DNA from: a virus
DNA: 40,781 nucleotides
Reading direction: 5' to 3' (one strand)
Virus record (IMG/VR): IMGVR_UViG_3300042881_002368
Coordinates: 1 to 40,781 of that record
Within the stretch, counting starts at the first letter, position 1; each line of letters opens with the position of its first letter. This document shows positions 2,115-39,245 of this stretch, in pieces. Below the pieces are notes generated by a model that was given only the letters and a program-made list of their open reading frames with translations, ran no database searches and was not told the origin of the DNA. The position numbers and the translations under genes were made by a program.

Positions 2115-3122
2115 TTAAGGGTTAACAAAATTGTTTTCTTCTTTTTTGAATTCAGATGTAATGTATTCACCCAAAAATTCTGTAAATATTGCTTCCATTA
2201 CTGGAATACATATGGAGTTACCAGCTAACGAAATGTGATTGTTTGTTGTTAGACTTGTTGATAATAATTTATCAATATCTTCTTCTCTAACACCCATAAA
2301 TCTATAGGCTTCTCTACCAGTAATTGTTCTTATTCTACCATCCTCAGTCATAATTTGTGGTGAACCAGTTGTCGTTAAACAAGGGGAACATCCTTCAATA
2401 GAATAGATACGTCTTGCTTGGTCATATTTAATATCGTTTCTACGTCCCACAAGTCTGCACACACTATTCTTTTTAGGTTCGTTAGGTGTTATATCACATT
2501 GAATGAATAAGTCTTCCATAATGTCATTTTCAATGAATGGTCTCATTGATACTCTTTCTTTCCTATGTTTCTGAACTCCGTTCATTATTGATTCAACTTC
2601 TTCATTTGACATCCCATATACTGACATCATAAAGACTCGTTCTCTATTCTGTGGACAACCATAGTCAGCACCATTTAAAACCCTCCAAGAACATCCATAT
2701 CCCAATTCATTTAAAAATAATATATGAGCTTTAAAGTTATCTATATGGTTGTGAGATACTAAGTTTTTAACATTCTCCATCAAAAGATACTTTGGTTGAT
2801 TCTTTGTTAAAATCCTCTCAACTTCATATAATAAGCCACTTCTCGTACCTTTTTGAATACCTTTTTGAACTCCTGATATTGATATATCTTGACAAGGGAA
2901 TGAGTAAGTCATTAGGGCACATTGGGGGTAATTGTCCTCGTTTACCTTCGAAATGTCCCCCAAGTTACCCAATGTTGTTGTATGTAATGAATCATAAGCA
3001 ATATTCGCGGTTTTGAGGATGTCACAATTAGCAACATTCTCAAAATCAACACCAATGTATTTTAGTGCCAATTCTTGTGTCCCATAACCCGAAAATAGTG
3101 ATATTACTTTTAATTTATTCAT
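2115..3122 (-). CDS. DNA (cytosine-5) methyltransferase
   Basis: 335 residues, a complete C5-cytosine methyltransferase that transfers a methyl group from S-adenosylmethionine to cytosine in DNA. Visible motifs: I (SLFSGYGTQELAL, residues 8-20, SAM binding), IV (SFPCQDIS with catalytic Cys77), VI (LLMENVKNL, E116-N117-V118), VIII (GCPQNRERVFM, near residue 158), IX (REAYRFMGV) and X (LAGNSICIPV). The target-recognition region between VIII and IX has about 100 residues, so sequence specificity cannot be read. There is no adjacent restriction endonuclease. It sits 6 nt after uvsX and 9 nt before the exonuclease, so it is expressed with the replisome. This suggests methylation of the phage's own DNA during replication, perhaps against host restriction (inference). 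Confidence 0.95.
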   Translation of the reverse strand: MNKLKVISLFSGYGTQELALKYIGVDFENVANCDILKTANIAYDSLHTTTLGNLGDISKVNEDNYPQCALMTYSFPCQDISISGVQKGIQKGTRSGLLYEVERILTKNQPKYLLMENVKNLVSHNHIDNFKAHILFLNELGYGCSWRVLNGADYGCPQNRERVFMMSVYGMSNEEVESIMNGVQKHRKERVSMRPFIENDIMEDLFIQCDITPNEPKKNSVCRLVGRRNDIKYDQARRIYSIEGCSPCLTTTGSPQIMTEDGRIRTITGREAYRFMGVREEDIDKLLSTSLTTNNHISLAGNSICIPVMEAIFTEFLGEYITSEFKKEENNFVNP

Positions 3123-28599: not shown

Positions 28600-30366
28600 T
28601 TGAGTTTAACAGGTAAAACATCTAATCTTATTGAATCTAAAGCACTTGATATTTTGGACACATATTCAGGTGGAAATAACTTTATTTTAAAACTAAAACA
28701 TTATAAAGAAACCAATAAGAAATTCTATCCCACACGTTCCCAAGCTGAATATATAATTAACTATCATTCAGTTGAACCAAAGGTTGCCAAGAAGTGGGTT
28801 AACATTGAACCCTATTTTGCAAATAAAATTGCTGATGAAAAAAATATGTTAACAATCCCAACTGATATTTGGGTTGAAAAGTTATTGGTGGATAAAGATA
28901 AATCATATCATATTTGGGGCAGATTTAACTCAGGTGACACTTTAACTGATATTTGGTTACCCAAGGCCGCATTATTAAAAACTCACAACACAGAGGAAGT
29001 TAAGATTGATTATTCAAAGTATGGTCATCGACCTCCACTTGAACATCAAAAAATTGCAATAGAAAAATTGGTTGGTAGTAAAAGATTTATTTTAGCAGAC
29101 GACATGGGCGTTGGAAAAACGACCTCAGCAGTTATTGGGGCACTTGAAACTGATATAAAGAAAATATTAATTATCTGTCCAGCATCACTTAAAATAAATT
29201 GGGAAAGAGAAATTAGAAATTATACTGATAGAAGTGTTTATATATCGGAGGGAAAGAATTTCTCCACTGACCACGACTTTGTTATTGTGAATTATGATAT
29301 TCTTAAAAACTTTTATGATTTAAAGAATAAAGAGAATTCACCAATAGCAAAAGCTAATTTTGATTTGGTTATAATTGATGAGGCTCATTATATTTCCAAT
29401 CCCCAAGCCGCAAGAACGAAACTAATAAATGACTTTGTAAAGAAATCAAAATATCTTTGGTTGTTAACTGGTACACCAATGACAAATAGACCAATTAATT
29501 ATTACAATTTATTGAATCTAATTGAAAGTCCTGTTGCTCAAAATTGGATGGCTTATGTTATTCGTTATTGTCAAGGTTATCAATTCAAAGCGGGGAATAG
29601 GAAAGTGTGGAATGTGAATGGTGCATCTAACTTGGAAGAGTTAAGAGATAGAACATCAAGACAAGTATTGAGAAGATTAAAAACTGATGTATTAGATTTA
29701 CCTGAAAAAATTATTACCCCAATCTATTTGAGATTAAAATCAAAACAATATGAAGAATTGATGGGGGAATATTATGAGTGGTATAATAAACATCCAGAAG
29801 AATCAAAGTCATTAACTGTTCAATTCAACAAACTTATGAAAGTAAGACAAGTTATTGCTGATGAGAAAGTTCAAGAGACAATTGGTTTAATTGAGAATAT
29901 ATTAGAACAAGGTAAAAAGGTAATTGTATTTACGAACTTTACAGATAGTTTACAAAAAATACATTCTCATTTTGGAAAACAATCAGTTTATTTGGATGGG
30001 ACTTGTAGTAAAACTCAAAGACAATATTCTGTTGACCAATTCCAAGAAAACGATAAAATAAAAGTATTCGTTGGAAATGTACAAGCGGCAGGTGTTGGTA
30101 TTACATTAACTGCGGGTGAGGTTGTATTGTTTAATGACTTATCTTTTGTTCCCGCACATCACCAACAAGCCGAAGATAGAGCTTATAGATATGGTCAAAA
30201 AAATTGTGTTTCAGTTTATTATCCCATATTTGAAAATACAATTGAAGGTGTTATCTATGATATGTTAATTAATAAAAAGAATATAATTGATACTGTGATG
30301 GGTGACAATTTGGATAAGGCCGAATTCATTGAACAAATTATGAATAGGATTAATAATGTTAATTAA
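28600..30366 (+). CDS. SNF2-family DEAH-box helicase/translocase
   Basis: 588 residues. Superfamily 2 motifs: I DDMGVGKTTSA (about residue 167), Ia ICPASLKINWEREI, II VIIDEAHYISN (about 258), III LLTGTPMTNRP, IV VIVFTNFTDSL, V AAGVGITLTAGEVVLFNDLS, and VI QAEDRAYRYGQKN. The last is typical of SNF2 proteins, which move along double-stranded DNA and remodel protein-DNA complexes or forks; in phage a UvsW-like branch-migration role is possible. The about 140-residue N-terminal region (LLVDKDKSYHIWGRF) is not recognised. No in-frame ATG precedes the motifs until residue 83, so a TTG start is used here. An ATG at 28584 would join this frame if one A of the run at 28589-28593 were missing. Its end overlaps the convergent gene by 4 nt. 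Confidence 0.9.
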   Translation: MSLTGKTSNLIESKALDILDTYSGGNNFILKLKHYKETNKKFYPTRSQAEYIINYHSVEPKVAKKWVNIEPYFANKIADEKNMLTIPTDIWVEKLLVDKDKSYHIWGRFNSGDTLTDIWLPKAALLKTHNTEEVKIDYSKYGHRPPLEHQKIAIEKLVGSKRFILADDMGVGKTTSAVIGALETDIKKILIICPASLKINWEREIRNYTDRSVYISEGKNFSTDHDFVIVNYDILKNFYDLKNKENSPIAKANFDLVIIDEAHYISNPQAARTKLINDFVKKSKYLWLLTGTPMTNRPINYYNLLNLIESPVAQNWMAYVIRYCQGYQFKAGNRKVWNVNGASNLEELRDRTSRQVLRRLKTDVLDLPEKIITPIYLRLKSKQYEELMGEYYEWYNKHPEESKSLTVQFNKLMKVRQVIADEKVQETIGLIENILEQGKKVIVFTNFTDSLQKIHSHFGKQSVYLDGTCSKTQRQYSVDQFQENDKIKVFVGNVQAAGVGITLTAGEVVLFNDLSFVPAHHQQAEDRAYRYGQKNCVSVYYPIFENTIEGVIYDMLINKKNIIDTVMGDNLDKAEFIEQIMNRINNVN

Positions 30367-31184
30367 TTTTTACTTTTTAAAATAAAAGAGGTCATTTTAT
30401 TTTCAATATTTGAAATATTATTGGATATAAAATTATTTAATTTTTCACAAATTTTTTCATCTATATCATTATTTTTATTTTTACACTCAAAAGTATTAAA
30501 TCTTTTATTAATTGAAACCTGAAATGGTGCATTTATATTTTTATTACTATGAAAAACATACAAATACCCATTTAGAATATATTCAAAAAATTTTGATGGG
30601 TTAGCTACAGTACATAACTTAATTTTACCTCCTTTTTTTCTATCGTCACAAACACCTAATATGTTCTTATATACTTTATACAATTCACTCGTATCAATAT
30701 TTAATTCCCCTATTGTATCAAAATTAGGGACAATAAAAACTTGGAAGTCATCAAAAATTCCATAATATAAAATTCCATATTCTTCTAATTTATTAATATC
30801 ATCATTTTTAATAACATAATTAATATTTTCTTCTATCTTTTCAGAATTATCATATACTATATTAATCATATTTTTAACGTCATCACAACTTTTAATTTGT
30901 CCAATATCTTTTATAGGAAAATTTTTTTTGTGTTTATCAAAAAAATTTAGATAATCTACAAAATCGAAAATTTCGTCTTGACTAATACAATTTTGTTCAA
31001 TTTTTTTTATTATCCAAATAAAATGATTCCATTTTGGAAATAAATCCTTAATCACACCGAATTCTTCATCAGTTAAAATTTGTTTTTCAGTAACATATAT
31101 ATGTCTGATTACTTCAGGGTCTTGGATTTCATTTATCACACCCATCATTGACTTCATTCTTTGTATTTGTTCGTTAAGATTCAT
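30363..31184 (-). CDS. Unknown protein with packaging-type leader
   Basis: 273 residues, not recognised. Residues 1-19 (MNLNEQIQRM, KSMMGVINE) form an amphipathic helix ending in I-N-E, matching the leader family described in the findings, after which the sequence changes to IQDPEVIRHIYV. The body is K/N/I/D-rich with alternating strands (YGILYYGIFDDFQVFIVPNF), a helix pair, and two cysteines in KSCDDVKN and LGVCDDRK. There is no signal peptide or membrane helix. It is transcribed from the divergent promoter region shared with the superoxide dismutase polyprotein and converges on the SNF2 gene with a 4-nt overlap. A virion-internal protein delivered to the host is the working hypothesis. Confidence 0.78.
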   Translation of the reverse strand: MNLNEQIQRMKSMMGVINEIQDPEVIRHIYVTEKQILTDEEFGVIKDLFPKWNHFIWIIKKIEQNCISQDEIFDFVDYLNFFDKHKKNFPIKDIGQIKSCDDVKNMINIVYDNSEKIEENINYVIKNDDINKLEEYGILYYGIFDDFQVFIVPNFDTIGELNIDTSELYKVYKNILGVCDDRKKGGKIKLCTVANPSKFFEYILNGYLYVFHSNKNINAPFQVSINKRFNTFECKNKNNDIDEKICEKLNNFISNNISNIENKMTSFILKSKN

Positions 31185-31248: not shown

Positions 31249-33942
31249 ATGGAAAAGAAATTAGAACTATTAAAAGAAACTATATTATTAGGTGAAAGTT
31301 TAATAACTGAAGCCAAAAAGATTGGAATTGATAAATTACCATATGGTTATGATTCCCTTACAAGATTCATTGATGTAAAAACAATGAATGTTCATTACAA
31401 CAACCACTATAAAGGATATGTTAAGAAACTTAACGATGCCTTATCAAAAAAGAATTATGGTAATGTTGAATTGGAAGATATTATCAAATCAATAACAAGA
31501 TATCCAAAAGTAATTAGAAATAATGGTGGTGGGGCTTACAACCATTCATTATTTTGGAAAATGTTATCCCCTGAGAAACAAACAATCAAAGGAGAAATAT
31601 TAACCAAAATTAATAAAGAATTTGGGTCTTACAAAGAATTTAAGAAAAAATTTGAAGAAGAATCCATTGGAAGATTTGGGTCAGGCTGGGCTTGGTTGGT
31701 ATTAACCAAAAACAATAGATTGAAAATTATGACAACACCAAATCAAGACAATCCCCAAATGAATGACATTGATGGTGGTTATCCTTTATTGGGATTGGAT
31801 TTATGGGAACACGCCTATTATATAAAATATCAAAGTAAAAGAGATGAATATATTAAAAGGTTTTGGGATGTTGTGAATTGGGAATTCGTTAATGATGTTT
31901 ATTTATCAAAACTAAAAACAAAATTAAGAGAATCAATTAAAGAACAAAAGAATGATTTTATCTATGACCCAATTGAAGATTTTGGTAAAGATTTTAAATA
32001 TATAAAGGATAATGGTAGAGTGAATCCAAAAGTTTTCAAAATAATGTTACCCAAAGTTTATCCAGAATGTTCACCAAAAATTATAGAAAATTATAATCTT
32101 AATACACGAATTGAAACTCCTTGTTTTGGTAAAATAAAAACTGATGAATGCAAAACCGCTTATGGTGTAATTGGTGGTAAATATGCTGTTAGTCAAAGAG
32201 GTGGGATTGGTGAATGGTCTGTCATAAATTGGTTTGATGGTAATACTAATGTTAGTGATAATATTTTGGAGTTATATGAAAAATATAATAGTGAAGGTTC
32301 TGATTTTATTAATTGGTTTTTTAAAATGAAATACACTTTATTAGGTAATGATGGTAAATTTGTACCAAAATTGGCTAATTTTATATTGAACCCAAAAACT
32401 AAAAAAGGAACATTAGATTATGGTTTATCTCGTGAAGAGTTGGCCATCCAAATTTTAAATAGTAATTATAAAAATTTAAACATTACAAGATTTTGTGATG
32501 GTGATGTAAGGGATAAATATAAAGGTCAAGATATGATGATAATCCAAAATAATGTATCAAAATATCTACAAGTTAAACCAACAAGAGATTTATATGAAAC
32601 AAACATTAACGGACAAGTAAAATATATCTTCAAAAGTAAAAACATCTATAAACCTGAAAATATTAATGTTTTTGGTTTTATTGATAATATTAAAAACTAT
32701 GTATTTTTTGACTTTGACAAAGCGGAAATAAAAGATGAAGGCTTGGAATCTAAAGAAAGATATTCTTATATTTTTGACTCTAGTAGTATTAAAATTAAAT
32801 CAGATAGATTATACCTATCAAAAATTAATTTAACTGAATCTATAACAAAAAGGGAATTATTAAATGAAGCTAAATCTGATTTTCCAAATTATAAAACTAT
32901 GCGTAGTATAATTCAAAGTGTTTATGATAAATGTGATAGTAATAATCCATTTGATGGTTGGGTTAATGGTTGTAAAGGTGATTTAAATATACCAGAATGT
33001 GGTCCAACTAATATTGGTATTATTGGAGGTAAATATACTGAAGAAAGATATGGTGGAAAAGGTAATTGGTCATTAGTAAATAGATGGGATGCGAATAGTA
33101 ATGTCCATAGCGAAATAGAAAAAATATATAAAGAAGAAGCTGAAAAATATAAAACAGGAAAAAAAGTAAAATATCCCATATCATTGAGGCAATGGATTGA
33201 TGAAAATAAAGTAAGATTATTTTCAAATGATGGAGAATGGATTGATAGATTGGCAAAAATCTCAATTGAAAACTTTGAACAAGGTTTAAAAAATGAAGAA
33301 TATGGAAGAGATATGATTAATTTAGCCTTCGGTTTAGATAGATATAAACAAGACATTGAATATAAAATTAATTTTAATTGTGGTGGTTCGGTTGCTGACA
33401 CAAAAAAAGGGCAAGATATCGTTTTAAAATTTGAAAATGAAGAACCAATATATTTCCAAATAAAACCTATAAAAGAAGGGTATGTTAAAATTTTTAATTC
33501 TGATAGGGGTAAGTATTATAGGGTGGCATCTTGGCATGAACACACAAAATATAAAGAAGAAAATGTTGATTTAATAGTTTATGTTAATCAAGAAAATAAA
33601 GAATATATCATTTTTGATAATGATTTTTCAAAAATAATAACAACACCAAATTCTAATTATAAAAGAAATAATCTTGAAGGTGATATAAATATACCTAAAT
33701 ACATTTACTATTATGAAGAACCTAGAAAGACAAATATAACTAACATACCTATAATAGAACCAACACCAAAAACTAATATAAAACCAAGATTAGAAAAAGA
33801 TAAAGACCAATTAATTAAACTCTATCAAGAAAGAATGGCTTATTATAAAAACAAATTAAAAGAATTAGGAATAAATGATGAAAATATTTCTGAAGCTATT
33901 AGGTTTTATAAAAATAAAATAAATAAACTACTTTATAGTTAA
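31249..33942 (+). CDS. Polyprotein: Mn-type superoxide dismutase plus two nuclease-like modules
   Basis: 897 residues. Residues 1-21 are an amphipathic leader ending LITE. Residues 28-225 are a full Fe/Mn superoxide dismutase: metal ligands H49 (MNVHYNNH), H99 (AYNHSLFW), D184 and H188 (GLDLWEHAYY), second-sphere H53 and Y57, and GSGWAWLVL. Gly95 and Gln166 (TPNQDNP) favour manganese. Two related modules follow, A (about 233-540) and B (about 541-820). Each has IGGKY, then GxGxWSxxNxxDxNxNV, then GQD (D428; D723) and QxK (Q441-K443; Q737-K739), a PD-(D/E)xK-like pattern whose nuclease role is inferred. A helical tail ends the protein. Candidate prohead-protease sites at E21, E232 and E540 lie at the domain borders. 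No fused gene of this kind is known to me. Confidence 0.88.
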   Translation: MEKKLELLKETILLGESLITEAKKIGIDKLPYGYDSLTRFIDVKTMNVHYNNHYKGYVKKLNDALSKKNYGNVELEDIIKSITRYPKVIRNNGGGAYNHSLFWKMLSPEKQTIKGEILTKINKEFGSYKEFKKKFEEESIGRFGSGWAWLVLTKNNRLKIMTTPNQDNPQMNDIDGGYPLLGLDLWEHAYYIKYQSKRDEYIKRFWDVVNWEFVNDVYLSKLKTKLRESIKEQKNDFIYDPIEDFGKDFKYIKDNGRVNPKVFKIMLPKVYPECSPKIIENYNLNTRIETPCFGKIKTDECKTAYGVIGGKYAVSQRGGIGEWSVINWFDGNTNVSDNILELYEKYNSEGSDFINWFFKMKYTLLGNDGKFVPKLANFILNPKTKKGTLDYGLSREELAIQILNSNYKNLNITRFCDGDVRDKYKGQDMMIIQNNVSKYLQVKPTRDLYETNINGQVKYIFKSKNIYKPENINVFGFIDNIKNYVFFDFDKAEIKDEGLESKERYSYIFDSSSIKIKSDRLYLSKINLTESITKRELLNEAKSDFPNYKTMRSIIQSVYDKCDSNNPFDGWVNGCKGDLNIPECGPTNIGIIGGKYTEERYGGKGNWSLVNRWDANSNVHSEIEKIYKEEAEKYKTGKKVKYPISLRQWIDENKVRLFSNDGEWIDRLAKISIENFEQGLKNEEYGRDMINLAFGLDRYKQDIEYKINFNCGGSVADTKKGQDIVLKFENEEPIYFQIKPIKEGYVKIFNSDRGKYYRVASWHEHTKYKEENVDLIVYVNQENKEYIIFDNDFSKIITTPNSNYKRNNLEGDINIPKYIYYYEEPRKTNITNIPIIEPTPKTNIKPRLEKDKDQLIKLYQERMAYYKNKLKELGINDENISEAIRFYKNKINKLLYS

Positions 33943-33969: not shown

Positions 33970-35091
33970 ATGTCAATAATTCCAGAACCAGAAAGAAGTC
34001 AATTATACACAAGATTAAGACACCTACTAGGTGCTCCTCTCAGAAGTATTGAATTGGAAGATGAACAATTAGATTCATTATTAGCTTTATCTATTGAAGA
34101 TTATTCTCAATATATACAAGATTGGTTAATTGAATCTCAATGGTCATCATTATATGGTTTAAATTTAGATACCGAATCATTAACCAAAGCATTTATTACC
34201 AAAAGCTTTGATTTTGAAGATCGTTATTCTTACGCATATTCAAAAATAGTTGGCTTACAAGCTGGTGGGGATAATGTAATGAAAAAAGATTATATACAAC
34301 TCGTACCCAATCAACAAGTATATGAAATACCAGCAGGTAGAGAATTAAATGAATTATTGTGGTTTACACCTAGTACAATAAATAACATTTTTTTTGATGC
34401 CTTTTCATTTGGGGCTTTAGGTGGTACTGGTGTAGGTGGACCTGGTGGATTCGCCCAAATAGGTAATACCGGTTCATATTTCATGGCACCAGTCTTTGAT
34501 ATGTTATTAAGGATGCAAGAAGTCAACATCCAAAGAAGAATTATTGCGGGTGATTTGACTTATCGTATCACAGCCCTACCTGAAGGTAAAAAAGCCGTTC
34601 ATTTAATGCAAACACCTGGAGGTAAATTTGACTTTGGAAATAGGTCGTTAATGGGTGGTAAAGTTTGGTATTGGTATTATGAAGTTGATGGTCCTGATAG
34701 AGATGATTGTTTGAAAAAGAATCCTGATATAATTAAATTACCCTCAGATGTTCCACTTAATAAAATTGGTTGGACTGATTTAAATAATCCTGCTCAAATA
34801 TGGATACGTAGATGGTTCTTTGCCACAGCCAAGGAAACTCTAGCTAAAGTAAGAGGTAAGTTTAGTGGTAACATTAAAACACCAGATAGTGAACTTACAA
34901 TGGATTATCAAATATTAGCAACTGAAGGTAAAGATGAAAAAATTAAATTACTTGAAGAATTAACTGGGGCCGAAGGAAAACTATCAAGATTAAGACCTGA
35001 AAAGGTTATGGAAAGAGAAGCGTTAATTGCTGACAACTTAAACAAGGTAAAGAAATTCCAAGCTATGCCTAGACAAATATATGTAATCTAA
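33970..35091 (+). CDS. Neck / head-completion protein (gp13-like)
   Basis: 373 residues (T4 gp13 has 309). The N-terminus, LYTRLRHLLGAPLRSIELEDEQLDSLLALSIEDYSQY, fits the pattern YCLRxLGxPVxxIxVxDxQxxDxIxxAL found in gp13-type neck proteins. The second half has IWIRRWFFATAKETLAKVRGKF, then ELTMDYQILATEGKDEKIKLLEELTG and a final MPRQIYVI, also typical. A G-rich loop (GALGGTGVGGPGGFAQIG, about 148-165) interrupts the middle. In T4 this protein joins the neck after DNA packaging. It has its own late-type promoter and its stop overlaps the next gene start (TAATG). Confidence 0.7.
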   Translation: MSIIPEPERSQLYTRLRHLLGAPLRSIELEDEQLDSLLALSIEDYSQYIQDWLIESQWSSLYGLNLDTESLTKAFITKSFDFEDRYSYAYSKIVGLQAGGDNVMKKDYIQLVPNQQVYEIPAGRELNELLWFTPSTINNIFFDAFSFGALGGTGVGGPGGFAQIGNTGSYFMAPVFDMLLRMQEVNIQRRIIAGDLTYRITALPEGKKAVHLMQTPGGKFDFGNRSLMGGKVWYWYYEVDGPDRDDCLKKNPDIIKLPSDVPLNKIGWTDLNNPAQIWIRRWFFATAKETLAKVRGKFSGNIKTPDSELTMDYQILATEGKDEKIKLLEELTGAEGKLSRLRPEKVMEREALIADNLNKVKKFQAMPRQIYVI

Positions 35092-35630
35092 TGAGAGCTA
35101 TTATTAGAAAAATATTAAAAGAAGAATTTGAATACACAGATGAAATATTAGATTTATTATTATCTCCTGATTCATCAAATAATGAACTAGGATTTACTTT
35201 TATAAAGTACAATGATATTCCAATAGAACCTATTGTTGATAAAATTATTAATTCTTTTCGTATTAAAAATGAAGAAATTAATGATTTACAAAAAGAAATA
35301 GATAAATTAGAGAATGAATCTGGTTACATTTTATTTGAATTCTCAAATAATTGGATATCAATTGAATATTCTGTTATTAAAGATTATGGTGATGAAGATT
35401 ATTATGATGATGATGATTACGATGATGAAGATTGGGGACTAAATGAAAATTTAGCTAATTATACATTATCATACGAAATAAGAATTGGTGACCAAGAAAA
35501 ATTTAATGGATTTAGTGATTACAACGTAGTAACCCAATCAATATTAGATTCAATACAAATAATAAATTTTATTTTAGAAAAACAAATAAAACCTAGAATT
35601 TTAAAATATTTTAATAAAAAAGTTAAATGA
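35091..35630 (+). CDS. Unknown acidic protein with packaging-type leader
   Basis: 179 residues, not recognised. It starts MRAIIRKILKEEFEY, a short basic leader ending I-L-K-E like those of other proteins here. A helix with a heptad pattern follows (INDLQKEIDKLENE), then a run of acidic residues (DEDYYDDDDYDDEDWG, near residue 100) and a beta-rich C-terminal half (YTLSYEIRIGDQEKF, then a helix and KPRILKYFNKKVK). The start overlaps the gp13-like stop by 1 nt, so it is translationally coupled to a neck gene and expressed late. Strong acidity could mimic DNA, but this is speculative. Confidence 0.75.
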   Translation: MRAIIRKILKEEFEYTDEILDLLLSPDSSNNELGFTFIKYNDIPIEPIVDKIINSFRIKNEEINDLQKEIDKLENESGYILFEFSNNWISIEYSVIKDYGDEDYYDDDDYDDEDWGLNENLANYTLSYEIRIGDQEKFNGFSDYNVVTQSILDSIQIINFILEKQIKPRILKYFNKKVK

Positions 35631-36061: not shown

Positions 36062-36385
36062 TTAGTATTCACCTACATCAGCAAACGCATCACTTAATTG
36101 TTTACACGTAAAATCATCATAACCAATTTCAAGATTATTCTTTTCATATTTTATTTTAACAATTCCATTTTTAGTTAATAATTTAAAATTATTATCCACT
36201 TTTATTTTTTTTGGAGTGTTTAATTCTAAATTAATACCATTAATTTTTGCAGTACCTTTCTTTAAAGTGAATTCTGCATATTTACCTGAACAAAAATCTA
36301 AACCAAAATTATCTGATTCTTCTTTAATTACTCTTTTCACCAATCTTATTAAATCGGATTCTGTTAATCTTACTATTTTTCTCAT
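36062..36385 (-). CDS. Small protein with strong packaging-type leader
   Basis: 107 residues from the ATG at 36385. A longer frame reaches 36505 but would run through the polymerase terminator, so the shorter start is chosen. The leader MRKIVRLTES, DLIRLVKRVIKE (residues 1-22) is the clearest of the shared amphipathic leaders, ending I-K-E. The mature part is a small beta protein (YAEFTLKKGTAKINGINLELN, IVKIKYEKNNLEIGYDDFTC) with two cysteines. It has its own palindromic late-type element 20 nt upstream. Convergent to the plus-strand cluster across a terminator. Function unknown; internal virion protein inferred. Confidence 0.78.
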   Translation of the reverse strand: MRKIVRLTESDLIRLVKRVIKEESDNFGLDFCSGKYAEFTLKKGTAKINGINLELNTPKKIKVDNNFKLLTKNGIVKIKYEKNNLEIGYDDFTCKQLSDAFADVGEY

Positions 36386-36393
36386 ATTTTTTT

Positions 36394-36406
36394 TATTTAT
36401 AAATAT
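36394..36406 (-). promoter_or_regulatory. Candidate late promoter element, palindromic
   Basis: Minus-strand GTGATATTTATAAATAAAAA, with TATTTAT 20 nt before the ATG at 36385. It contains the palindrome TATTTATAAATA also found at 31197-31208 and starts 10 nt after the polymerase terminator. Confidence 0.55.
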
Positions 36407-36415
36407 CACATCAAT

Positions 36416-36440
36416 AAAAAAACACCATTTAAATGGTGTT
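36416..36440 (-). terminator. Terminator after DNA polymerase gene
   Basis: AACACCATTTAAATGGTGTT is a perfect inverted repeat, with seven A on one side and seven T on the other, so it can work in both directions. It lies 4 nt after the polymerase stop. Confidence 0.88.
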
Positions 36441-36443
36441 TTT

Positions 36444-39245
36444 TTATTGGTCAATATAACTTTCCCATCCTTCTTCTGCCAAGTCATAAATATAGTTGGG
36501 GTCAATTCCTCTCTTCTCCCAATACTCCAATTCCTTTGGTTCTAAATCTAATAAGTCTTCTTGGATTCTATCTTGGTCTTTTTCTTCAAATGGAACACCA
36601 TTAATCAATTCACATTGTTGACTTGTGAAGAAAGTTCTTTTCTCAGGATTATCAACAATTAAGTTATCTCTAATATCTTGTTTAAATACAATCAATAAAG
36701 GTTCAATACGATTATTGAATGTTGTTATTGCTCTTGGTACATTGTAATCCCCAGTCATATTAGGATTGTTTTCAATGTCGTTTGAATTTAACATATAACA
36801 ATTAAGTTGAATAACAGAATCAATTTGGTCTGAATTAATTTTAGTATTTTGGAAATAAGTTTTTAATTGTTCTTCACTCCATCCTTTTTTTGGTTTGTTT
36901 ACTTTTTGTACATCTCCGTGACTTGCTTTAGTTCCATTATTAACATAATAAATTACTTCACCAAGATTAACTTTTAGATTGTGTTTAATTACCAATTCCA
37001 TATGAGCCATTCTAGACATAGCACCACCTGATTTAGTTGTTTGTTTTGACCTATCAATATAATCTTTGATACTTAATTTTACTTTTGCTCTTTGGGCAAT
37101 TTTAAGGAGTGGGATTTCTTTATTGTAAATCTTTGTAAGGTATTCATAATACCACTCAACAAATTGTTGACCTTCACCCTCTAATAAAAGTTTGATAGCT
37201 TTATCCAAGAAATCCTCAATATATAATGGAAGTTTTTTGGATTTGATTGAATTACCTGTAAGTTTAACTTTACCATTATGTTCCATTGTGGCATAATTCT
37301 TCCTTGCCAAGTTAATACAAGATTTCCAAGTACCATCGCAATCAAGGGCCATTGCCCCCCTCATAAATATATCATTATACTCCGCAACATCAGCGTCATA
37401 ACCTCGATATTCTTTATCTTTCTTAACTTTCCAATTAAGACCTTTACCTATATAAACTCTGTTATCAACACCACCTTCAGGTAATGAGAAGTTCTGACCA
37501 TCCGTATCACACACAAGTGGAGTATAACCTTTCTTAATAAAGAACTTTGACATCTGACGAAGATATTGTCTTCCAGTACAAGTAATCTGTTCACCCATAA
37601 ACATATCGCCCCATGGGAATACTTGTGGAGCTGATAATGCACCAAATAGCGAGTTTATAAAAATCTTTATAGGGAGTTGTTTTCTATCATAAGAGAGAGA
37701 TTTTTTCTTATCTTTTTCATACCACTCTGCCGCCAAGTTCTTATAGTTAATACGGGCATTTCTAAAATAACCTAACTTACCTTTCATTGCCCCCATTATA
37801 TCACAAGTTGGGAATACATCATGAACCAATTGTATTGATGGATATAGAGAAGAAAAGTCAAGCTTTAACACATTCTTTGAATAACCAACTTTAAACAATC
37901 TTGATAACCCCCCAACAAAATCTTTCTTTTGTTCTTTTTGTGGAATTGCCAATTTGTATTTATAAGACCAAGCCAACATCAACATTTTCCAAATCGTTGC
38001 CGTTCCCATGGTTGAAACCCTCTCATAAGTGGTTGGAATCATTGATGCCAACATAAATGTACCTTGATTAAATTCTTCATCCACTTTAAGGGTTTCTTCC
38101 AAGTCATCATCCAAATATCTCTCAACAAGATTGTCACTAGTTGTTTTGATATACACTTTATCGTGTTTTTCACAAATGGAATCAATCTTGGGGTCAACAC
38201 CCACTTTTCTATATTTGCCATTCTCAATATTTAACCAATACTCTTCTTTTTTTGAATAGAATGGTGCAATGTCCAAGTGGTCAATATAAACTCGGTCTTT
38301 GGCTTCAGCATTGATATATTGGGTAATATATTTAAGACCAGCAGATTTGATACTTGAATTGATTGCTTGAGCTCTTCTAACTGAGTGTAGGACATCTATA
38401 ATATTGTATCCCCACATACTAACTTGATTAAAGGATTCAACTTCATTGGCCAACTTTAACATCCCATTAGATTGTTTAAATTTATATTCAGGATGTAGAG
38501 TCTTACAAATCTTTTTAATATCCAAATGTAGAGCTTTACATCTTTCCATAATCCAATACCAGTCGAAGTTGAATGAATTGTATCCACCAATAATACTTGG
38601 TTTAATTTCATCAATTAATCTAAAGAATTCAACTAAACCAGCTCGTTCTTGGTCTTCATTAGAACATTCAATTACTTTTTGTAATCCTTTATTTGTTTTG
38701 ATTCCAATCATAAAGATTCTACCATCCTTCGGTTCTAAGGAGGTAGTTTCTAAGTCGAATCCAAATCTTGTTACATCATTGTATTCTTCATAACCTTTAA
38801 ACAATCTTTTTTCTTTTTGAATAAGGTATTGTTCAACTGGGGGTAGAACTAATATTAAATCCTTGGTTTTTTCACCCCAAGGGTCAACTCCACCTTCTTT
38901 AAAGAATTGCATTAGGTTTCTATAACCTTTAAGGGACTTAACCATAAATTTAAGTCCATTCTCCAATCTTTCATTGTCGCCAGTTTGTAATTTTTCTATT
39001 AGGATTCCGTGTTTTGTCATCGCTTCTTTTTGAAGACCTTTGGATGACTTATAGAAATTAAGACCATGTAAATCACCAACCCAAGCAAAGGCTGTGAATG
39101 TGTCTTTTCTTATTTCTTTTCCTTTACCAGGAATTTCTTTGATTTTAAAAACGGAATCTGTTGCGTAATCGTATTCTACTGCTACGATAAATTGTTCGGG
39201 GTCGTTCCCATTAAGGAACATTTCAATTTGTTCTTGTGATATCAT
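36444..39245 (-). CDS. gp43: DNA polymerase, family B (gp43-like)
   Basis: 933 residues (T4 gp43 has 898). The 3'-5' exonuclease motifs are Exo I FGFDLETTS (D164, E166), Exo II GGYNSFNFDWYW (D228) and Exo III GYNIIDVLHS (D284). Polymerase motifs are A LDFSSLYPSI (D462), B IKIFINSLFGALSAP (K526, N530) and C PLVCDTDGQNF (D579, D581). All metal-binding aspartates are present, so both activities should be intact. Motif C reads DTDG where most family B enzymes have DTDS. It replicates the phage genome with the gp41-like helicase and ssDNA-binding protein. The gene is alone in its block, with a terminator after it. The start codon lies in a long inverted repeat. Confidence 0.97.
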   Translation of the reverse strand: MISQEQIEMFLNGNDPEQFIVAVEYDYATDSVFKIKEIPGKGKEIRKDTFTAFAWVGDLHGLNFYKSSKGLQKEAMTKHGILIEKLQTGDNERLENGLKFMVKSLKGYRNLMQFFKEGGVDPWGEKTKDLILVLPPVEQYLIQKEKRLFKGYEEYNDVTRFGFDLETTSLEPKDGRIFMIGIKTNKGLQKVIECSNEDQERAGLVEFFRLIDEIKPSIIGGYNSFNFDWYWIMERCKALHLDIKKICKTLHPEYKFKQSNGMLKLANEVESFNQVSMWGYNIIDVLHSVRRAQAINSSIKSAGLKYITQYINAEAKDRVYIDHLDIAPFYSKKEEYWLNIENGKYRKVGVDPKIDSICEKHDKVYIKTTSDNLVERYLDDDLEETLKVDEEFNQGTFMLASMIPTTYERVSTMGTATIWKMLMLAWSYKYKLAIPQKEQKKDFVGGLSRLFKVGYSKNVLKLDFSSLYPSIQLVHDVFPTCDIMGAMKGKLGYFRNARINYKNLAAEWYEKDKKKSLSYDRKQLPIKIFINSLFGALSAPQVFPWGDMFMGEQITCTGRQYLRQMSKFFIKKGYTPLVCDTDGQNFSLPEGGVDNRVYIGKGLNWKVKKDKEYRGYDADVAEYNDIFMRGAMALDCDGTWKSCINLARKNYATMEHNGKVKLTGNSIKSKKLPLYIEDFLDKAIKLLLEGEGQQFVEWYYEYLTKIYNKEIPLLKIAQRAKVKLSIKDYIDRSKQTTKSGGAMSRMAHMELVIKHNLKVNLGEVIYYVNNGTKASHGDVQKVNKPKKGWSEEQLKTYFQNTKINSDQIDSVIQLNCYMLNSNDIENNPNMTGDYNVPRAITTFNNRIEPLLIVFKQDIRDNLIVDNPEKRTFFTSQQCELINGVPFEEKDQDRIQEDLLDLEPKELEYWEKRGIDPNYIYDLAEEGWESYIDQ

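Follow-up and report, generated by a model that had tools for sequence, protein, structure and literature searches.

Internal head proteins of phage T4 (IPI-III and Alt) are carried in the head and bear a short N-terminal leader that ends in (I/L)-x-E, the prohead protease gp21 cleaving after L/I-X-E; in the account given by PMC9026906, 10 residues of IPIII are enough for targeting, which depends mainly on residues 4 and 7, while processing depends on residues 8 and 10. The 'polyvalent proteins' of phages and plasmids (Iyer et al. 2017, as presented in PMC5512222) are multidomain proteins of disparate activities with exchanged domains and predicted injection. Their processing is attributed to zincin-like metallopeptidases, and the word 'superoxide' is absent from the main text of that article.

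Viral superoxide dismutases (SODs) packaged in the particle are known from chlorovirus PBCV-1 (A245R) and from giant viruses. The chlorovirus enzyme is a single-domain Cu/Zn SOD from a virus of a eukaryote, whereas the SOD described here is of Mn type, comes from a phage and is predicted to be packaged. PBCV-1-infected cells contain less superoxide than cells infected with a virus devoid of the SOD gene (as summarized in PMC7019647), and SOD is among the giant-virus virion proteins listed in PMC9405923. Among phages, PA5oct encodes a SOD homologue (EST35_0261) whose SOD domain is preceded by an IAE↓A triplet (the arrow marks the putative cut). It is annotated ESI-MS/MS, a tag found mainly on structural proteins in the slice of the PA5oct record that was considered. 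Unlike the protein described here, with which it shares 24.5% identity over the match, it has a single domain and belongs to another phage group. The SOD of Vibrio phage 2.275 has no leader of the type described below, and that of MW462191 starts four codons ahead of the matched part, which leaves no room for one. Bacteroidetes phages that encode bS21 and sister contigs of our locus share the placement of this gene, which is next to those for protease, capsid and portal but on the other strand; the main text of the corresponding article (PMC9723584) does not contain 'superoxide'. Among the titles listed on SODs in phages and on prohead-protease polyproteins, mostly from outside the subscription literature, none describes a protein such as the one reported here.

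The window, i.e. the whole 40,781-nucleotide stretch of IMG/VR record IMGVR_UViG_3300042881_002368, contains a genuine 897-residue ORF with an ATG start (31249-33942, + strand), in which a leader is followed by a complete Mn-type SOD and then by modules A and B, which are homologous to each other and have PD-(D/E)xK residues. The features of the locus are as follows.

31249-31311, + strand: residues 1-21, N-terminal leader and putative propeptide for capsid targeting (MEKKLELLKETILLGESLITE), with ITE↓A at its end
31309-31311, + strand: codon of E21, last residue of the leader
31312-31914, + strand: Mn-type SOD domain, residues 22-222 (PF00081/PF02777, PDB sequence matches)
31915-32013, + strand: border 1 linker, residues 223-255, with the conserved site KLRE228↓S
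31930-31932 and 31942-31944, + strand: codons of E228 and E232, border 1
32014-32820, + strand: module A, residues 256-524, PD-(D/E)xK-like (E396, GQD428, Q441-V-K443, from alignments)
32821-32868, + strand: border 2 mini-leader, residues 525-540 (KINLTE↓SITKRELLNE↓A), with E530 and E540
32836-32838 and 32866-32868, + strand: codons of E530 and E540, border 2
32869-33735, + strand: module B, residues 541-829, PD-(D/E)xK-like nuclease (E683, GQD723, Q737-I-K739)
33736-33942, + strand: C-terminal tail of module B, with a linker, a modelled helical hairpin (residues 852-896) and the stop codon
33970-35091, + strand: neighbouring gene for an Ad2-like head-tail adaptor (PHROG 211, E 8.2e-9)

A preliminary description of this gene had proposed a SOD-nuclease polyprotein with (I/L)-x-E sites at E21, E232 and E540. 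The domains, the GQD..QxK motifs of both modules and the three triplets are all present, but E232 does not hold as a conserved site. E540 does come after the segment described as leader-like, INLTESITKRELLNE, and Ala is the next residue. We consider it probable that the gene encodes a head-targeted cargo polyprotein of a T4-type phage, cut by gp21/S77 so as to free an Mn-SOD and two PD-(D/E)xK nucleases. Such a protein would be a variation on T4-type internal proteins and 'polyvalent proteins'. It differs from IPI-III and Alt by its several enzymes per chain, its internal leader-like segments and its predicted SOD and nuclease cargo, and from polyvalent proteins in that the prohead protease is proposed to process it, at a site on every border.

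The SOD domain (residues 27-216) matches Sod_Fe_N (1.1e-19) and Sod_Fe_C (1.2e-39) as well as PDB sequences (from 8.6e-60). All four ligand positions (H49, H99, D184 and H188) are present, as are H53, Y57, Q166, W186, E187 and Y191, which bears out the initial view of a complete Mn-type enzyme with intact second sphere; the roles of these residues and the Mn-type assignment follow the usual assignments in the family. By its Pfam domains and ligands it is an Fe/Mn superoxide dismutase, with predicted activity. SOD relatives occur at no fewer than 555 IMG/VR loci, and the best 80 of 555 were read, so that our counts lean towards window-like members. The 150 ORF readings yielded 107 distinct SOD proteins, four of which (L076, L054, L099 and L005) are contained in longer ones, so that a few genes are counted twice or are fragmentary; three are open at the 3' end. 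Fourteen active-site positions are invariant in all 107 proteins (93 distinct SOD-domain strings).

An I/L-x-E triplet lies directly ahead of the SOD in 66 of the 67 readable distinct leaders, the remaining one having V-x-E. Glu is found at P1 in 67/67, Ile (34), Leu (32) or Val (1) at P3, and Phe, Leu or Ile at P4 in 67/67; the leaders are otherwise mostly variable. The rule is obeyed in the window (ITE21↓A), in 14/14 leader clusters at <40% identity, and by N-terminal and internal leaders alike (27 and 38, respectively, of the 65 that were sorted, the internal ones located behind a HExxH module). Exact duplicates were removed for these counts; 15 ORF readings were missed by a first pattern and 4 by a wider one. 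The latter comprise L188 (LIE↓M), L207 (LLE↓M), L073 (LLTE↓M upstream in frame, but no ATG) and L076, which has no readable leader and is identical to the last 343 residues of the L070 protein, itself endowed with one. As in T4-type internal head proteins, an L/I-X-E leader end thereby precedes the predicted mature protein. Over 275 ORFs of at least 100 residues from five contigs, (I/L)-x-E is only mildly enriched at N-termini (0.75 versus 0.52 per 40 residues).

Plain counting of (I/L)-x-E in the polyprotein was rejected as evidence: there are 19 triplets, compared with 12.1 +/- 3.1 in 2000 shuffles, and the three picked initially are therefore weak by themselves. Many matches cannot be sites, since the motif is so common and one of them is inside the SOD active site (LWE187). 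A stricter motif, [ILV][TNQ]E[AEQSGTK], is confined to the borders in 8/8 proteins, but it was chosen post hoc and is not used as proof. Comparison of the relatives was more telling. E21 and both Glu residues of border 2 (E540 and E530, the latter being an additional site, LTE↓S) are kept in SOD-A-B relatives, and E232 (IKE↓Q) is not. At border 1, close relatives carry KLKE↓SIKSNKVI(T/N)E↓E, and the conserved pattern therefore probably consists of E228 and another site further on (VITE↓E, VINE↓E or VITE↓Q), which the window lacks, with E232 probably not a site.

Alternatively, the protein might be packaged with removal of the leader alone, and SOD, A and B injected as one 'polyvalent' chain, the inner sites being fossils of gene fusion. 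The virion RNA polymerase of N4, packaged unprocessed according to PMC5512222, offers a precedent, and the inner sites are looser than the leader site, as seen with E232, with FTE↓S at border 2 of L004 and with [LIVM][YF]E where the HExxH module ends. However, fossils should decay, and the conservation of inner sites thus counts against this reading. From 99 proteins read, 88 with at least 30 residues behind the SOD gave 75 distinct 45-residue linkers, all of which contain at least one [ILV]xE (mean 2.24, versus 1.11 +/- 0.10 after shuffling), and two sites are 9-11 residues apart in 41/75 (4.2 +/- 1.9 after shuffling). These shuffles ignore common descent; a version with 25 clusters at <40% identity, which allows for kinship in part, still gives 2.04 sites versus 0.84 +/- 0.15. 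We therefore regard the single-chain scenario as unlikely, though the strongest of the alternatives.

Returning to the polyprotein, what follows the SOD is exchanged among relatives: A+B, A+C, A+D, B, C, D, E or nothing, and the changes fall at (I/L)-x-E sites. Modules change on both flanks while the SOD is kept, giving 10 SOD architectures, a total that excludes SOD+AB, an open fragment seen once, and SOD+E+E, in which a single partial E had been called twice. Domains of disparate activity, at least two per chain, are thus exchanged among relatives, as in polyvalent proteins, and the HExxH module of many of them fits the metallopeptidase theme reported for these proteins in PMC5512222. That module has only weak sub-threshold matches (SprT-like, 0.009; Peptidase_M78, 0.095). 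Fifteen proteins are of the M+SOD type, four of which (L099, L093, L101 and L082; 426-507 residues) have a C-terminal stretch without profile, and M+SOD+B proteins end in a tail similar to that of module B. Among 21 module C proteins without SOD, 13 begin like MKIIITEEQ or MKIIISESQ, which resembles the internal border KKIIITEEQ.

Module A shows homology to module B (30% identity, E 1.9e-18), and GQD..QxK occurs in both, in line with the two nuclease-like copies first noted. Mrr-like nucleases use QxK. The PD-(D/E)xK residues (E683, D723, Q737 and K739 in module B) are invariant in 19/19 A/B rows, and the nuclease residues are found in 39/39 module C and, by pattern, 24/25 module E sequences. 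In the window protein and in a set of 8 proteins, the SOD alone passed the Pfam cut-off. NCBIfam and PHROGs added nothing for A and B, scans of genome contigs gave no relative of A/B or of C, and profiles of A/B and C run against solved structures gave no convincing relative (2 and 0 hits, respectively, up to E 1). We folded B and C as separate modules; full-length alignments were dropped, because rows with module B only were placed on the SOD or split over A and B. In the AlphaFold2 model of module B (pLDDT 77.9), the E...D...QxK residues are located on a helix (141-169) and strands (181-185, 200-204 and 210-216), the tail forms helices 328-349 and 354-372, and the border 2 segment (model residues 1-18, i.e. 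525-542 in the window protein) has pLDDT values below 50. I-Ssp6803I chains take the first three Foldseek places (E 4.7e-3 to 7.5e-3, probability 0.99-1.00); 0/147 matches reach 1e-3, and further down, at higher E, acyl-CoA dehydrogenases predominate. VIA gave Z scores, all below 8, of 7.1 for SPARDA, 6.7 for Hjc and 6.4 for I-Ssp6803I, and all but two (Rep15:Rab3B) of the 28 listed rows over the core are nucleases or resolvases of the PD-(D/E)xK fold, several repeating one protein. The module B model thus probably resembles PD-(D/E)xK nucleases, and its activity is predicted. For module C, Foldseek gave no match at E <=1e-3, and the best VIA rows, DpnI (Z 4.9) and HinP1I (3.9), stand among unrelated ones.

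Sister contig G001 encodes T4-type gp20, gp21 (S77 protease), gp23 and bS21. We found gp23 in 9 of the 30 contigs searched (21 without match), with the site (H/F)LINE↓A in 9/9 of these capsid proteins, and the S77 protease in 8 of 13, all eight with gp23 (5 without match). The pair expected of phages with T4-type internal head proteins, gp21/S77 and gp23, is thus found in G001 and eight other contigs; neither had a match within the window, a 40.8-kb fragment. The head-tail adaptor gene immediately follows that of the polyprotein in the window, G001, G002, G003, G004 and L008. bS21 matches occur in 7/9 capsid-bearing contigs, 5 of them above the cut-off. By analogy, the phage host is probably a member of the Bacteroidota, and phages with such polyproteins probably infect freshwater bacteria.

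This genetic context also bears on the idea of a non-virion fusion enzyme acting in the infected cell, in which the conserved I/L-x-E would cap the SOD structure or have arisen by chance. Leaderless SODs are indeed annotated in other phages, such as Vibrio phage 2.275. We nevertheless find this explanation quite improbable, as the triplet agrees with the previously known motif of the T4 protease and with the site in gp23 of these phages themselves, the leaders vary except mainly at P1, P3 and P4, and the gene adjoins that of the head-tail adaptor. An inert, purely structural role of the SOD as a carrier that loads nucleases into the head, its chemistry being irrelevant, would fit its constancy between changing modules, but the invariance of its active site and the existence of four distinct SOD-only proteins leave this idea very little likelihood.

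Comparative sequence data thus lend strong support to the idea that the polyprotein is packaged in the head and that a T4-type protease matures it, on the grounds of the pre-SOD site kept in nearly all distinct leaders, the swapping of modules at sites, the internal-border-type leaders of SOD-less module C proteins, the presence of gp21/S77 and of gp23 with LINE↓A in sister contigs, and the PD-(D/E)xK-like model of module B with its low-confidence border segment. The ESI-MS/MS tag on the remote SOD-like protein of PA5oct points the same way. Weighing against the idea are the abundance of (I/L)-x-E in the protein, the missing second site of border 1 in the window, FTE↓S in L004, the single leader with Val at P3 and the unreadable one of L076, the mildness of the N-terminal enrichment, the capsid gene being present in only 9/30 contigs, the acyl-CoA dehydrogenases among the Foldseek matches of module B, and the SODs of Vibrio phage 2.275 and MW462191, which have no such leader. 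In the proposed mechanism, the N-terminal leader would act as a capsid-targeting sequence and bring the precursor to the core of the prohead. As the head matures, gp21/S77 would cut after the Glu of hydrophobic-(I/L)-x-E at E21, E228, E530 and E540, so that the Mn-SOD and both PD-(D/E)xK nucleases would be set free within the capsid. Judging from the leader and context, these might be injected along with the DNA, the SOD blunting superoxide during host-cell takeover and the nucleases possibly attacking host or rival DNA. More tentatively, and with somewhat less than even confidence, we envisage a combinatorial cargo train, by which a clade of T4-headed phages would load its capsids via a polyprotein made of cargo units with their own leader and cut site. 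Cassettes around the constant SOD would be appended, dropped or swapped, some on an internal leader, gp21 cleavage would be the switch that frees nucleases inactive in the precursor, and SOD and nucleases would enter with the DNA before gene expression.

If this is correct, phage capsids carry an antioxidant enzyme, and the loading of phage heads follows a polyprotein logic close to that of many animal viruses, which make several proteins from one chain. Given the number of loci with SOD relatives, the system could be common. One could then test what phages deliver at time zero to counter oxidative stress and to act on host DNA, and short portable tags would become available for placing chosen proteins in phage heads.

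The gene at 31249-33942 joins a superoxide dismutase (SOD) to two nuclease-like modules, as the preliminary description had it, with the following layout.

31249-33942 (+) of the 40,781-base IMG/VR record: ORF encoding 897 aa
Residues 27-216: Fe/Mn SOD (Pfam)
Residues 256-524: module A, behind the SOD
Residues 541-829: module B, behind module A
C-terminal end, after module B: helical-hairpin tail

Solved SODs are sequence matches of the SOD domain, from E 8.6e-60. Modules A and B are homologous (30% identity, E 1.9e-18), with no Pfam or NCBIfam match above cut-off and no PHROG match. A 273-aa ORF on the opposite strand and a SNF2-like helicase ORF (the latter named by eye) lie upstream, and a head-tail adaptor gene (PHROG 211) downstream. 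The tail sheath gene of the window (23143-26715 (-), 1190 aa) has Pfam/PHROG matches mainly in its C-terminal third and a large N-terminal part without any.

We scanned IMG/VR with the whole protein (10 relatives), A/B (22 loci), the SOD (at least 555 relatives confirmed, of which the best 80 were used) and module C of relatives (79 loci), the four scans overlapping. Among the matches listed, with the SOD set so restricted, there were 107 distinct SOD-containing proteins, four of them contained within longer ones, and 93 distinct SOD-domain strings. None of 28 INPHARED records with SOD matches reached 60% identity, and the clade is therefore seen only in metagenomes within the collections searched. 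In some relatives, an in-frame ATG precedes the conserved MEKK/MERA start (MIFIRYLYLMEKK.. in locus L005, 6327-9134; MRYLYLMERAA.. in L040, from 5242), making the true start uncertain there.

Cleavage by a T4-type prohead protease had been proposed at E21, E232 and E540. The polyprotein harbours 19 (I/L)-x-E triplets versus 12.1 +/- 3.1 in shuffles, a count that alone says little; comparison with relatives decides. Leaders were readable in 103 of the 107 SOD proteins (best 80 of 555), yielding 67 distinct sequences. At the site before the SOD, P1 is Glu in 67/67 and P3 is Ile in 34, Leu in 32 and Val in 1; P4 is Phe (33), Leu (28) or Ile (6), Met (59) predominates at P1' over Ala (7) and Thr (1), and the other columns are mostly more variable. 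All 14 leader clusters (below 40% identity) keep I/L-x-E, in agreement with the L/I-X-E rule of T4 gp21; T4 IPIII has a targeting sequence of 10 residues, of which 4 and 7 serve targeting, and 8 and 10 processing (accessible text of PMC9026906). In 38 of 65 sorted leaders, the leader is internal, behind a ~130-residue HExxH module that itself ends in [LIVM][YF]E (38/38 distinct strings) and has only weak Pfam matches (SprT-like, M78). In locus L095, from about 3518, residues 1-130 form such a metallopeptidase-like module (RTLAHEWVH..GGQNEDEAN) before the internal SOD leader, as in other M+SOD proteins; inspection of these proteins revealed no N-terminal leader of the module's own.

None of the 75 distinct linkers behind the SOD is without an [ILV]xE (in shuffles, 52.9 linkers on average have one), and there are 2.24 sites per linker versus 1.11 +/- 0.10 in shuffles; in 41 linkers, two sites are spaced 9-11 residues from each other, against 4.2 +/- 1.9 in shuffles. 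The 25 linker clusters below 40% identity have 2.04 sites each versus 0.84 +/- 0.15, and 14 of them have paired sites (8-11 aa apart) versus 1.19 expected from shuffles. E232 is not conserved in relatives and is probably not a cut site; the first border of the window has KLRE228↓S (arrow, presumed cut) and lacks the relatives' second site. A like double-site pattern recurs between A and the third module in the window, L005 and L051.

Sites at the border between A and the third module
Window: NLTE↓SITKRELLNE↓A
L005: LVTE↓SKLKKIIITE↓E
L051: LTE↓STRKNRLLLE↓G
L004: FTE↓S

The border with E530 and E540 forms the first 18 residues of the module B model, at pLDDT below 50, and is thus probably not buried.

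Architectures assigned by profile search point to module exchange.

Distinct proteins per architecture, among the matches listed (SOD set, best 80 of 555; M, HExxH module; AB, A- or B-type; C, D, E, other modules)
M+SOD+C: 26
SOD+E: 25
C without SOD: 21
M+SOD: 15 (four with a C-terminal stretch matching no module profile)
M+SOD+D: 12
M+SOD+AB: 6
SOD+AB+C: 6
SOD+AB+AB: 5 (the window's type)
SOD only: 4
SOD+C: 3
SOD+E+E: 2 (343 and 373 aa; a partial E)
SOD+AB+D: 2
SOD+AB: 1 (open fragment)

Thirteen of the 21 SOD-less C proteins start like MKIIITEEQ, MKIIISESQ or MKLIISESQ, three more loosely (MLNIKLSKKQ), and five have another N-terminal module. The internal A/C border, KKIIITEEQ, is of the same type as these N-termini. 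The simplest reading of these sequences is that cargo genes were fused with leader and site retained.

All 19 rows of A/B share E683, D723, Q737 and K739 (numbered as in module B of the window), and all 39 rows of C share D225, E247 and K249; by pattern only, module E has GxD..QxKP in 24/25 and module D PYD..IS[CI]K in 13/14. For the module B model (pLDDT 77.9), Foldseek ranks three I-Ssp6803I chains highest, at E 4.7e-3 to 7.5e-3 with prob 0.99-1.00; nothing lies at or below E 1e-3, and many lower matches are acyl-CoA dehydrogenases. VIA matched the core to SPARDA (Z 7.1), Hjc (6.7), I-Ssp6803I (6.4), D212 (6.3), NhoI (5.8) and DpnI (5.8); 26 of 28 listed core rows, with repeats, are what we take to be PD-(D/E)xK enzymes. 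VIA rows outside the core match the helical tail. Since all are below Z 8, the fold is likely, not settled. The module C model (pLDDT 85.5) gave weaker matches than B (DpnI 4.9, HinP1I 3.9) amid unrelated rows.

Genes for gp20, gp21/S77 and gp23 are present in G001, a sister contig with a polyprotein that matches the window's at 85% identity in the best segment. A first search of 8 records found S77 or gp23 in G001 only. Sought in 30 contigs, mostly picked by length, gp23 was present in nine, namely G001 and eight more with 80-91% identity, and near residue 60 all 9 proteins have (H/F)LINE↓A. The protease was found in 8 of 13 contigs searched, all eight also having gp23. A bS21 gene match occurs in 7 of the 9 gp23-bearing contigs (5 above cut-off), in the arrangement known from phages whose predicted hosts are freshwater Bacteroidetes (accessible text of PMC9723584), from which we infer Bacteroidetes hosts.

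Other window genes have leader-like N-termini, and the last four listed probably encode more head cargo.

22236-23069 (-): FDWDDN.. protein, HAD-like by eye, with leader MRILVTENQLKSLVE; the same mature protein follows MRNLIRRILREQ and MKNTIIRILREI in relatives (G002 62309-63223; L008 1311-2195)
5328-6059 (-): NNYITE↓QELPPPP
30363-31184 (-): RMKSMMGVINE↓IQ
35091-35630 (+): MRAIIRKILKE↓E
36062-36505 (-): inner start with RLTESDLIRLVKRVIKE↓E

Another tandem cargo-like protein (L017, about 1588-2478; G001:39588-40478 +) has segments KKILTE↓ATSESGSRGSFIAPLRMG.., INE↓ATFGYGGEYNAPLEIGM.. and ILTE↓DLAVWFGTKKKPKG...

Among other phage SODs, that of Vibrio phage 2.275 lacks such a leader and that of MW462191 has no room for one. 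The remote SOD-like protein EST35_0261 of PA5oct shows SIAE↓A before the SOD domain. Its record notes ESI-MS/MS, as for 23 of 52 features in a 45-kb slice of the PA5oct record, nearly all structural by name, with one rIIB-like protein. The accessible part of the MIJ3 paper, on a close relative, identifies four structural proteins and leaves superoxide unmentioned (PMC6892783).

In the proposed working, the leader would carry the precursor into the prohead core, where gp21 would remove it and cut the borders; SOD and nucleases would remain inside the capsid and pass into the cell along with the DNA. There the SOD would bring superoxide down at an early stage, as has been suggested for the SOD in virions of chlorovirus PBCV-1 (accessible text of PMC7019647), and the nucleases would cut host or rival DNA. 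The phage's own DNA would perhaps be protected by the nucleases staying fused until late cleavage, or also by a C5 cytosine methyltransferase-like ORF (2115-3122 (-); recognised by eye from LFSGYGT.. and PCQDIS), which may partner the nucleases in self-protection. With packaging presumed, the polyprotein would work like T4 internal proteins and the 'polyvalent proteins' (accessible text of PMC5512222); new here are the SOD, the leader and prohead-protease site predicted at each border, and the apparent cassette exchange.
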